Below, in pieces: positions 15,157 to 19,233 of a stretch of 64,000 nt of DNA (position 1 is its first letter; every line of letters starts with the position of its first letter). A model generated the notes under the pieces. The model worked only from the letters and a program-made list of their open reading frames with translations, ran no database searches and was not told where the DNA came from. The translations under genes and the position numbers were made by a program. Source of the DNA: Gemmatimonadota bacterium. GTDB taxonomy: Bacteria > Gemmatimonadota > Gemmatimonadetes > Longimicrobiales > Gaopeijiaceae. The DNA lies in NCBI GenBank assembly GCA_022827345.1, contig JAJDTB010000049.1:1-64000 (forward strand), given 5' to 3'.

Positions 15157-16538
15157 TTGATGATTCGCCGGGCCGCGAAGAAGACCCCATAGGCCGCTCC
15201 AGCCGACAGCAGCCCCCACGCGGGCGGCACCATCCAGCCCGTACCATCCCACACGGCGCGCGCCACGAGCAGGGTGACGACCCCGGCCGCGGCCGCCGCC
15301 AGCGCTTCGCCCGCACCGGGGCGCCGCGAGTGCAGGCCCGCCACCACCGGCACGAAGAGGCTGACGCCCAGCAGCGAATAGAAGATCGTCAGCGACGCCA
15401 CCACGCCGGGCAGCACGATCGCCAGCAGGATCCCCGCGCCGCCGCCCACGACCGCCGCGCCGCGCGCCACCTTGAGCACCTGGCGGTCCGTGGCCCGGGG
15501 ATTGACGAAGCGCCGGTACAGGTCCTTCGACAGCGACGTCGACAGCATGAAGAGGATCGCGTCCGCCGAACTGATCTCGGCCGACAGCACCGCCGCCAGC
15601 CCCAGCAAGCCGACCCACGCCGGCACTCCCTGCGTGAGGATGACCGGCAACGCCGTCTCGGGGTTCTCCAGGCCGGGCGCAACCGCCCGCGCGACCATCC
15701 CCAGCGCAGGCGGCATGAATGCGAAGAGCATCAGCGCGACACCGCACGCCGCGACGCCGAGGCGGACCGTGCGTTCGTCCCGTGCGCCGAAGGTCTTCTG
15801 CAGGATTCCGGGCGAGACGATGAAGGCGGGCGCGAGCAGAATCAGGTACATCCACCCGGAGTCGCCGTTGCTCATGAAGTCCATGTGCCCGGGGATGGTG
15901 CGCGCGCCTTCCAGCACGGCGTCAAAGCCGCCCGCACCGTCGAAAGCCAGCGGCACGGCGATCAGGAAGCCGCATACCAGCACGACCAGCTGCACCAGGT
16001 TGACCCAGGCCGAGCTCAGCAGCCCGCCGGCGACGAAGTACACGGTCATCACCGCGCCGCCGGCGACCGCACCGAGCCAGCGGGGCGCTCCCGCGACCTC
16101 TTGGAGGATCCACGCCATCGCGATGAGCTGGGCCGCGAGGATCGCCAGCGTGCCGAGCCAGAGGAGTGCGGCCATCGCCGCCCGGACCGACGGGCCGTAG
16201 CGGTGCTCCAGGTAATCGCCGACGGTGAGGAGGGAGTGATCGCGCGCGATGCGCCACAACCTCGGGCCGAGCCAGAAGGCGAGCACCAGGGTGCCGACGC
16301 CGGCCGACCCCACCCACCACCACGCCGCGAGGCCGTTCCGGTAGCCGAGGCTCGCCGCGCCCACGGTGGACCCCGCGCCGATGTTGGCCGCGAGGAGCGT
16401 GGCGAAGAGGAGCCCGGGTCCGAGCCGGCGCCCCGCGACGAAGAAGTCGCCGGTGCCGGAGACGCGGCGACCGATCGCGAGGCCGACCGCCGTGATGAGG
16501 ACGACGTAGACGAGGAGGCCGAGAAGGGTCGGGTTCAT
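15141..16538 (-). CDS. sodium:solute symporter (SSS family)
   Basis: 465 residues with about thirteen helices. It starts LLVYVVLITAVGLAIGRR and DFFVAGRRLGPGLLFATLLAANIGAGSTVG, the classic SSS N-terminus. EISSADAILFMLSTSLSKDLYR carries the residues that bind Na+ in helix 8 of this family. The ATG overlaps the stop of the upstream Ntn-hydrolase (ATGA), and the hydroxyproline dehydratase follows. From this context it probably imports proline, hydroxyproline or a small peptide, but the family also moves sugars and vitamins. Confidence 0.87.
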   Translation of the reverse strand: MNPTLLGLLVYVVLITAVGLAIGRRVSGTGDFFVAGRRLGPGLLFATLLAANIGAGSTVGAASLGYRNGLAAWWWVGSAGVGTLVLAFWLGPRLWRIARDHSLLTVGDYLEHRYGPSVRAAMAALLWLGTLAILAAQLIAMAWILQEVAGAPRWLGAVAGGAVMTVYFVAGGLLSSAWVNLVQLVVLVCGFLIAVPLAFDGAGGFDAVLEGARTIPGHMDFMSNGDSGWMYLILLAPAFIVSPGILQKTFGARDERTVRLGVAACGVALMLFAFMPPALGMVARAVAPGLENPETALPVILTQGVPAWVGLLGLAAVLSAEISSADAILFMLSTSLSKDLYRRFVNPRATDRQVLKVARGAAVVGGGAGILLAIVLPGVVASLTIFYSLLGVSLFVPVVAGLHSRRPGAGEALAAAAAGVVTLLVARAVWDGTGWMVPPAWGLLSAGAAYGVFFAARRIINVKQT

Positions 16539-17698
16539 GCGCCGGGGCCGGTGGGGTCACTGCCCAGGTCGGTGCGATGGCCATCGGTGCGCGGTTCTCC
16601 GGCCGGTCCCGGGTCCCCGGCCGGTCCCAGGTCCCGCAGCCCGGGCAGGTCCCTCACCGCCGGGATCGACGGGAGGCCGGTGGCGGCGCGCACCGCCTGC
16701 AGGATCGCGTCGGCCATGGCCTCGGCCGCGAGGGCGCCGACCTGGCTGGTGCTGAAGCCGTCGGCGAGGCTGCCGGTGGCGAGCGAGAAGATCGTGTCGC
16801 CGTCGCCGGGGGTGTGGCTGGGCACGATCGCGCGGGCGAAGCCGTCGTGGGCCATCTGCGCGACCTTGGTGGCCTCGGCCTGGGTCAGGAGCGCGTTCGT
16901 GGCCACGAGGCCGATGGTGGTGTTCTCGCCCGGCGGCGGTGAGGGCACTTCGCCGCGGAGGATGCGCCGGGCGTCCAGGAACTCGCCGCCCGCGCCGAGC
17001 GCGCCCGCCACGACCTGTCCGGTGGCGGGATCGATGATGTCGCCGACGGAGTTGACCACGACGATCGCGCCGACCACGAGGCCGCTCGCGAGGGTGATCG
17101 AGGCCGTGCCGACGCCGCCCTTCATGGCGCTGGCGCCTCGCCCCATCTTACCCACCGTGGCGCCGGCGCCCGCGCCCACGCTCCCCTCCGCGACGAGGCC
17201 GTTGGAGGCGCCGGTGGCGGCTTCGTAACCGCAGTCGGGGCCGGGCCGCACGCCGCCCGCGACGCGCAGGTCGAAGATGATCGCGCCCGGCACGATCGGG
17301 ACGACGAGGCCGCCCCCCACGCGGTAGCCCTCGCCCCGCTCTTCCAGGTAGCGCATGACCCCGTGCCGCGTGGCAAGGCCGAAGGCGCTCCCGCCCGAAA
17401 GGACGACGGCGTTGACATCCTGCACCGTGTTGACCGGGTCGAGGAGGTCGGTCTCGACGGTGCCGGGTGCGCCGCCTCGCACGTCCACGCCACCGACGGC
17501 GCCCCCATCGGCGATGATCACCGTGCAGCCCGTGGGGTTGTCCGGATAGGTGAACTGTCCGACGCGGATCCCGGGAACGGCCGTGATCGCCCCTGCCGGG
17601 TTGTCCTCTCCGCCTCCGACTTCCTGGGCAGCAGCCGGAATCGGCGCCAGGAGAAAACCGGCCAGTGCCGCGGCCCGGATTGTTGTCTTGCCGGCCAT
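16535..17698 (-). CDS. P1 family Ntn-hydrolase (NylC/DmpA-like aminopeptidase)
   Basis: 387 residues with a signal peptide (AALAGFLLAPIPAAAQ). The family core is clear: GITAVPGIRVGQFT-like start, NAVVLSGGSAFGLA, TGASNGLVAEG, and the self-cleavage site ENTTIGLVATNA. By analogy with NylC the chain should cut before Thr260, which becomes the N-terminal nucleophile; DmpA uses Ser here. Members cleave N-terminal residues from peptides or amide oligomers. A proline-rich tail follows residue 350. The ATG at 17698 was chosen for the signal peptide. It is coupled to the symporter. Confidence 0.83.
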   Translation of the reverse strand: MAGKTTIRAAALAGFLLAPIPAAAQEVGGGEDNPAGAITAVPGIRVGQFTYPDNPTGCTVIIADGGAVGGVDVRGGAPGTVETDLLDPVNTVQDVNAVVLSGGSAFGLATRHGVMRYLEERGEGYRVGGGLVVPIVPGAIIFDLRVAGGVRPGPDCGYEAATGASNGLVAEGSVGAGAGATVGKMGRGASAMKGGVGTASITLASGLVVGAIVVVNSVGDIIDPATGQVVAGALGAGGEFLDARRILRGEVPSPPPGENTTIGLVATNALLTQAEATKVAQMAHDGFARAIVPSHTPGDGDTIFSLATGSLADGFSTSQVGALAAEAMADAILQAVRAATGLPSIPAVRDLPGLRDLGPAGDPGPAGEPRTDGHRTDLGSDPTGPGA

Positions 17699-17829
17699 GG
17701 TTCCTCCGCTGTCGTCTTGTTGTCGGCTGGCGCTCGGTTGCCACAGGGGTTGTCCACCGGCTGCCGGGCAACCCCGCACCCGCATCGTCGCTCCAAAGTG
17801 GGTACGGACGGCAGCCTGCGGCAATGACC

Positions 17830-17948
17830 GGCCAATCTGGCACTCCGGGCGGCAGAATCCGAAGCCCGGGTTCGGCCAGATTGGCAGGAAAGCCAAATGC
17901 AATCGGCCAACGGACGGCGGATGTCGGAGGGCGACCGGCCAATCTGGC
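17830..17948. promoter_or_regulatory. three GGCCAATCTGGC-type enhancer-like repeats
   Basis: GGCCAATCTGGC occurs at 17830-17841 and 17937-17948, and its inverse GCCAGATTGGC at 17875-17885. They lie 9 to 130 bases upstream of a sigma-54 promoter. Conserved repeats in both orientations are what one expects of binding sites for an NtrC-type activator. The nearest copy is unusually close to the promoter. The activator gene is not in the window. Confidence 0.6.
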
Positions 17949-17956
17949 AGGTTTGT

Positions 17957-17972
17957 TGGCACGATTATTGCT
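17957..17972 (+). promoter_or_regulatory. sigma-54 promoter (-24/-12)
   Basis: TGGCAC (17957-17962), five bases, then TTGCT (17968-17972) matches the sigma-54 consensus TGGCAC-N5-TTGCW exactly. Transcription would start near 17983, leaving a leader of about 47 bases before the 83-residue gene at 18030. Confidence 0.8.
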
Positions 17973-18029
17973 GCGGACAAAAGGCCATGATGCGCCAGCG
18001 GGGGCGCACAACGCCAGGGGGAGGGAAAA

Positions 18030-18281
18030 ATGACGAGGCTACACTTGAGGAAACGACTGAACTGGCGAATTTCTGCACTGGGCCTGGTCCTGTCCATGGG
18101 ACTGATTTTCGGCGCCAGCGGGATTATCCGGCTCAACGCGGCGGAAAAGGAGCATCCCGCCGTCGATGTCGAAGAGGTTTCCGAGCCAGCGTCTCAGCAG
18201 GGTGAGTCCTTCGCGGCACCACCCGTTGTCCCCTCAGAAGGACACCGGGGAGTCAAAAGGAACTTCCAGGAACTCCTGTAG
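18030..18281 (+). CDS. 83-residue membrane-anchored or secreted protein under sigma-54 control
   Basis: No family is recognised. The first 13 residues are basic (RLHLRKRLNWR), residues 14-33 are hydrophobic, and LNAA-EKEH could be a signal cleavage site near residue 38. The remaining 45 or so residues are acidic and polar, ending VKRNFQELL. The start is well supported by a GGGGGAGGG ribosome site. It stands alone, with a sigma-54 promoter and three enhancer-like repeats upstream, so expression is probably switched on strongly by a specific signal. It may be a small structural or signalling peptide; that is conjecture. Confidence 0.65.
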   Translation: MTRLHLRKRLNWRISALGLVLSMGLIFGASGIIRLNAAEKEHPAVDVEEVSEPASQQGESFAAPPVVPSEGHRGVKRNFQELL

Positions 18282-18369: not shown

Positions 18370-19233
18370 GTGCCCGTTCACGACCGCCGCGACATGCTCG
18401 ATCTATTCAGACGTTTCGCCGGCCGTTTCACGCTCACCGCCCTGCTCGTAGTCCTTGAAGCCGCCGGCTGGGTGCTCTTCCCGCTGGTAATCGGGCGGGC
18501 CATCGACAGCGTTCTCGCCGAGTCCGCCCGGGGCCTCTACGAACTCGCCGGTCTCGGCATCCTCGCCATGGGGATCGCGGTCCTGCGCCGTCTCGTCGAC
18601 AGCCGCGCCTACGCCCGCATCTACACGACGCTCGGCGAGGAAATGGTGGCCAAGGACGCCGGGAGCACCACCTCGGCGAAGACCGCGCGTCTGGGAATGC
18701 TCAAGGAGGTCGTGGAGTTCTTCGAGAACTCGCTGCCGGAACTCATCATCAGCACGCTCGGGCTCGTGGGCACGGTTCTGATCCTGTCCACCCTCAACAT
18801 CTCGATCTTCTTCGGCTGCCTCGTTGTCATGGCGGCCACCGTCACCCTGTACGCGCTCACCGGCAGGCTCACCACACGCTACAACGAGGGGCTGAACGAC
18901 GAGCACGAGCGGCGCGTGGACATCGTCGACTCCGGCAACCCCGGCCGCGTCGCGCGCCACCTCCGCGCCACGATGCGCTGGAACATCCGTCTCTCAGACC
19001 TCGAGGCGGCCAACTTCGGGATCAACTGGGTGTTCATGATCGTGCTGATCGTCTTCTCGGTCCGCGCTGCCGTGGAGCGGACGGTCGACTACGGCACCGT
19101 CTTTGCCATCGTCATGTACGTCTTCCAGTTCATGGAATCGATGATGATGCTCCCCTTCCACTTCCAGCAGTGGCTTCGCCTGCGCGAAATATCGGGGAGG
19201 CTTGCGGCGGTGGGGACGTCCGGGGACGACTAG
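18370..19233 (+). CDS. ABC-transporter-like six-helix membrane protein without ATPase domain
   Basis: 287 residues. The sequence has about six transmembrane helices and the shape of an ABC exporter membrane domain (start RFAGRFTLTALLVVLEAAGWVLFPL; ARIYTTLGEEMVAKD as in the first coupling segment). It stops before any Walker A, signature or Walker B motif, and no ATPase gene is adjacent. Stand-alone proteins of this type form a known family. Its function is unclear. The GTG at 18370 or the ATG at 18394 could be the start. The 3' end overlaps the convergent M20 gene by 4 bases. Confidence 0.72.
   Translation: MPVHDRRDMLDLFRRFAGRFTLTALLVVLEAAGWVLFPLVIGRAIDSVLAESARGLYELAGLGILAMGIAVLRRLVDSRAYARIYTTLGEEMVAKDAGSTTSAKTARLGMLKEVVEFFENSLPELIISTLGLVGTVLILSTLNISIFFGCLVVMAATVTLYALTGRLTTRYNEGLNDEHERRVDIVDSGNPGRVARHLRATMRWNIRLSDLEAANFGINWVFMIVLIVFSVRAAVERTVDYGTVFAIVMYVFQFMESMMMLPFHFQQWLRLREISGRLAAVGTSGDD

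Follow-up and report, generated by a model that had tools for sequence, protein, structure and literature searches.

A conserved sigma-54 promoter box before the gene of a small, probably bitopic envelope protein in Gemmatimonadota

In the window, by which we mean the whole 64-kb stretch of DNA that was analysed, a short open reading frame preceded by a sigma-54-type promoter box lies between a divergently transcribed peptidase gene and the gene of an ABC-type membrane protein. The features of the locus are the following.

16535-17698, minus strand: divergent peptidase S58 gene (PF03576, E = 1.7e-45), boundary of the intergenic region; the same neighbour is found in most relatives
17746-17775, no strand assigned: dyad GGGGTTG-N16-CAACCCC, which includes the GCAACC of the window's genome; a candidate activator site from comparison with relatives
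17830-17841, plus strand: repeat copy 1, GGCCAATCTGGC, exact; retained only in genome G009
17875-17886, minus strand: repeat copy 2, TGCCAATCTGGC, with one mismatch, from a motif search and the comparison with G009
17937-17948, plus strand: repeat copy 3, GGCCAATCTGGC, exact; one arm is changed in G009
17957-17972, plus strand: putative sigma-54 promoter, -24/-12 box TGGCACGATTATTGCT, an exact match and near-invariant in the orthologous upstream regions
18017-18025, plus strand: Shine-Dalgarno sequence GGGGGAGGG, read in the sequence; a purine-rich site before the start is kept in the orthologues
18030-18281, plus strand: ORF of an 83-aa small protein, with orthologues in the genus, dN/dS values and a single-sequence AlphaFold2 model
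18370-19233, plus strand: gene of a stand-alone ABC transporter transmembrane protein without ATPase domain (PF13748 ABC_membrane_3, E = 4.8e-43); the true start is probably the ATG at 18394

The box TGGCAC-N5-TTGCT has the exact -24 GG and -12 GC core of the consensus TGGCAC-N5-TTGCW. It is the sole match in the window even if one mismatch is allowed, and the number of exact TGGCACN5TTGC matches expected by chance in the window is 0.11. The box stands before 21 orthologous genes (20 of the genus, one of another genus), with a distance of 69-87 nt between box start and start codon. When these 21 upstream regions were aligned by their boxes, the mean information was 1.54 bits per position in the box and 0.35 in the flanks. 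GGCA and TGC are invariant in 21/21 boxes, whereas the first T, the C that closes the -24 part and the T preceding TGC are each present in 20. The 40 bp adjoining the box have a median pairwise identity of 30%, and all 15 representatives with mutually diverged flanks retained the box. Three more genera in the family have weaker homologues of the small protein (E = 1.9e-7 to 4.7e-5), which stand behind TGGCACGATTCATGCA (-95), TGGCACGGTTCATGCA (-73) and TGGCACGCGCTGTGCC (-78). Box and ORF are kept together across the genus and in these three other genera, as a search of related genomes, proposed by an earlier sequence-only reading, showed. We take both promoter and ORF as real, because they are kept across the genus while the flanks have diverged. 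It must be noted that chance matches do exist, as shown by a TGGCACN5TTGCT match inside a coding gene of the same genome (L050). It is nevertheless very improbable that the box before the small gene is likewise without function and that the ORF has a different promoter or is no gene at all, since both box and reading frame are conserved in the genus despite diverged flanks. A search for a sigma-70-type promoter near the small gene found none, and the leader had no match in Rfam. The small gene is probably transcribed from the box at 17957-17972, with a predicted start near 17982.

Orthologues of the small gene were found in 20 of the 23 genomes of the genus and their pairwise dN/dS ranges from 0.06 to 0.62, thus the ORF is a real gene under purifying selection. 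The named records of close relatives are metagenome-assembled genomes of Gemmatimonadota, and on our reading of the isolate names the members of the genus are sponge-associated. The gene must be dispensable, since it is missing from three genomes of the genus that have RpoN. The encoded protein begins with a basic N-terminus and a single hydrophobic helix (about residues 13-35), followed by an acidic Pro/Ser-rich tail and a short C-terminal helix. The ribosome site and the protein features described in the sequence-only reading (basic N-terminus, single hydrophobic segment, acidic tail) were all confirmed. Its view that the 83-codon ORF encodes an undescribed exported or membrane protein also holds, as the protein is conserved and has no match in Pfam or NCBIfam. 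There was no credible relative among solved structures. A phage origin was rejected, as phage records gave no match. A scan of the genome contigs with the single small-protein sequence returned five loci. AlphaFold2 predicted a helix at residues 4-41 (pLDDT about 90 in residues 11-30), a low-confidence tail and a helix at 75-82; this model was made from a single sequence, with no alignment, and is weak evidence. The protein probably crosses the membrane once, with its N-terminus in the cytoplasm and its tail, about 45 residues long, outside. In genome G017 (L046, 9578-10170) the small gene is tandemly duplicated, with a sigma-54 box only before the first copy.

The orthologous locus mostly lies between the divergent peptidase S58 gene and downstream ABC and/or amidohydrolase genes. 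The ABC protein of the window (287 aa) scored 147.7 bits against PF13748, for which the curated cut-off is 27. No other domain, including an ATPase domain, was found in it above cut-off, and it had no relatives among solved structures. Its gene is directly downstream of the small gene in 15 genomes of the genus, and among the 23 genus genomes it shares the presence pattern of the small gene (20/20 with the small gene, 0/3 without). It is possible that the three genomes without both genes form one clade, therefore the co-occurrence may reflect few events. In five genomes the ABC gene lies at other places, without a consensus sigma-54 box there and without a second small gene of the 83-aa family upstream. 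This weakens the idea of an obligate operon; co-transcription with the ABC gene is not obligatory. In G071, a genome of another genus, an ABC-type gene apparently begins, as judged by eye, right after the stop codon of the small gene.

The tight co-occurrence with an ABC transmembrane gene is also what one could expect if the small protein were not anchored in the membrane at all, the product being instead a cleaved secreted peptide (a signal or a matrix component) exported with the help of the ABC-type protein. In many members the hydrophobic stretch is followed by Ala-Ala-(Glu/Gln), and in the outer part of the protein only the C-terminal GHP...L region recurs among the members compared; both observations would suit a processed peptide. 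On the other hand, the orthologues of G001, G004, G019 and G017 have no cleavage-like residues, the hydrophobic segment, at about 20 residues, is long, and the ABC protein, having no ATPase domain, is no evident peptide exporter. We consider a secreted peptide possible and clearly less probable than a membrane-anchored protein.

Upstream of the box the sequence-only reading had described three copies of GGCCAATCTGGC in both orientations and interpreted them as enhancers. Three roughly palindromic copies (GCCA-N3-TGGC) are indeed present within 120 bp upstream of the box, but only two are exact and the third has one mismatch. When the intergenic region was shuffled 300 times with its dinucleotides preserved, a three-copy family of 11-mers (at most one mismatch, both strands) arose in 2 shuffles, therefore the repeats exceed chance. 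The predicted transcription start is roughly 145 bp downstream of copy 1 and 100 bp downstream of copy 2, which is a usual enhancer distance. In spite of these properties it is unlikely that the copies are the activator's enhancer sites for the small-gene promoter. The end of copy 3 is separated from the -24 box by 8 bases, closer than a usual enhancer site, and the repeats are missing from all orthologous upstream regions except that of the near-identical G009, whose small protein is 99% identical to that of the window's genome (G000). In the comparison of these two genomes the repeat sites differ in 2/36 and the flanks in 24/286 (P = 0.75), thus there is no excess conservation of the repeats. 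Apart from the two in the window, the 4.79-Mb genome contains no exact copy. The further repeat arrays suggested by the sequence-only reading did not turn up as exact copies, so none stands before another sigma-54 promoter. That reading had named a failure of close relatives to conserve the repeats or the ORF as an observation that would speak against it, and here the outcome is divided: the ORF is kept, the repeats are not. The repeats appear to be a lineage-specific feature, which may have a role within the lineage; the comparison does not support them as a general enhancer.

Another upstream element recurs in the relatives. The hexamer GCAACC was found in 19 of the 21 upstream regions, as opposed to 2.7 expected from mononucleotide shuffles. 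Across the genus its upstream distance from the box is mostly 57-71 bp; in four genomes it directly adjoins the box, and in the window's genome it is at -189, a position which makes only a weak case for the dyad as a putative activator site in this genome. Since the compared sequences share ancestry, the recurrence of GCAACC as a candidate upstream element across the genus is a lead, not proof. The upstream regions of most relatives also contain AAGATAA, which probably serves the divergent peptidase S58 gene as its -10 element; it is missing in the window's genome and in G009.

The genome encodes the proteins that such a promoter needs. RpoN was found with E = 9.6e-60, and there are four full NtrC-type activators, each combining AAA+ and Fis-type HTH domains; a receiver domain is present in three of the activators. 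Together with the exact match and the conservation with the ORF, RpoN and the four activators bear out the sigma-54 promoter proposed in the sequence-only reading. None of the four activator genes lies at the small-gene locus; that one of them serves this locus is a guess. By the proposed mechanism an NtrC-type activator that responds to a signal, and is probably a two-component response regulator, would bind upstream, and, using ATP, would open the RNA polymerase held by sigma-54 at the box. Activation would lead to synthesis of the small bitopic envelope protein, which may cooperate with the stand-alone ABC-type membrane protein of the adjacent gene. Transcription from the box, the activator with its binding site, the topology and the partnership with the ABC protein are the parts of this scheme that we infer.

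It is instructive to compare the locus with known systems. In phage-shock operons (PspF, PspG) a sigma-54 promoter drives small inner-membrane proteins. The present locus differs from these in that none of the four activators reached the PspF cut-off and that the small protein belongs to no Pfam or NCBIfam family. In the PEP-CTERM regulon (PrsR/PrsK) a sigma-54 box and a putative activator motif precede many single genes of exported proteins, with 71 nt on average separating the end of the box from the start codon (Haft et al. 2006, PMC1569441). The small gene resembles these in having a box before the gene of an exported protein, at a distance which, it must be noted, was counted here from the start of the box. 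In contrast, the small protein has no PEP-CTERM domain and no second hydrophobic segment at its C-terminus, and the best activator score against the PrsR type (TIGR02915) was 389.3 bits, below the cut-off of 502.6, so that all four activators fall short of it. By these two features, the small-gene locus is not a PEP-CTERM system. More generally, sigma-54 promoters were reported to associate with genes of envelope components, lipoproteins and exopolysaccharides (Francke et al. 2011, PMC3162934), and the small-protein locus and its regulon fit this exterior theme. In that paper 'Gemmatimonad' occurs only in the title of a reference, and the two small protein families of the present work were not found described there. 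Among the publications found to name PF13748 no title indicated a paper on the function of the family, and no description of its pairing with a small protein under sigma-54 control turned up in these records. Gemmatimonadota promoters appeared in none of the titles or abstracts found on Gemmatimonadota and sigma-54 promoters.

In this lineage the small gene is part of a limited sigma-54 regulon that encodes exported and surface proteins. We assembled this regulon by searching the window's genome and the genus with a strict and a relaxed box pattern; these searches miss divergent boxes and also return chance matches inside genes. Its members are the LRELGI family, large repeat lipoproteins, small exported proteins rich in Cys, and a few further exported proteins. 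The sequence-only reading had seen in the enhancer control of so small a protein a sign of a dedicated response. Since the 83-aa protein is one member of the regulon, this view needs changing: sigma-54 control stands, as control of a small set of exported proteins and not of a single small protein.

LRELGI is an undescribed family of 55-60-residue single-helix proteins ending in LRELG[ILYF] (L185, L186-L207, L244-L290); the copy of the window's genome lies outside the window, on contig C32 at 197716-197892. The family is present in all 23 genomes of the genus and in 72 of 154 genomes of the order, spread over 20 genera. The 22 readable copies of the genus all have a sigma-54 box 77-114 nt upstream, and 21 of them apparently start with ATT, a rare start codon, behind a strong ribosome site. 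Outside the genus a significant box (P <= 0.05) was found before 28 of 47 LRELGI genes. The prediction that box-less LRELGI genes belong to genomes without rpoN was refuted: nearly all of these genomes have rpoN, thus the link between LRELGI and the box was lost or changed in them. The 83-aa and LRELGI families showed no homology to each other (hhalign probability 0.9%).

Taken as a whole, the reading of the locus as a sigma-54 promoter, an NtrC-type activator, a small bitopic envelope protein and a regulon of exported proteins is in our opinion likely to be correct. Far more tentatively, sigma-54 in this Gemmatimonadota family could serve largely a compact envelope regulon, consisting of the two undescribed single-helix families (the 83-aa protein and LRELGI) and the repeat lipoproteins, with the 83-aa protein acting together with its ATPase-less ABC partner in an envelope response. 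Gemmatimonadota are for the most part uncultured, and their gene regulation is little known. Here a sigma-54 box, readable from sequence comparison, offers a dependable handle on one regulon of the phylum, aimed at the cell surface of sponge-associated bacteria. The analysis also brought out two undescribed small protein families, one of them with a wide distribution across genera, and the role of small single-helix proteins as outputs of an enhancer-controlled envelope response is now directly testable.

The large lipoproteins of the regulon have carboxypeptidase-regulatory-like repeats and occur, several per genome, behind sigma-54-like boxes (L053, L073, L121, L123, L126, L129, L138, L142, L144 and L147; further loci are L150, L151, L155, L166-L168 and L182). 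The first 95 residues of a repeat lipoprotein scored just below the cut-off of PF13620. The lipoprotein genes are often at contig ends, as if the repeats broke the assembly. Small Cys-rich exported proteins, unassigned to a family, also stand behind sigma-54-like boxes (L130, L146, L171 and L173, in G012, G022 and G003).
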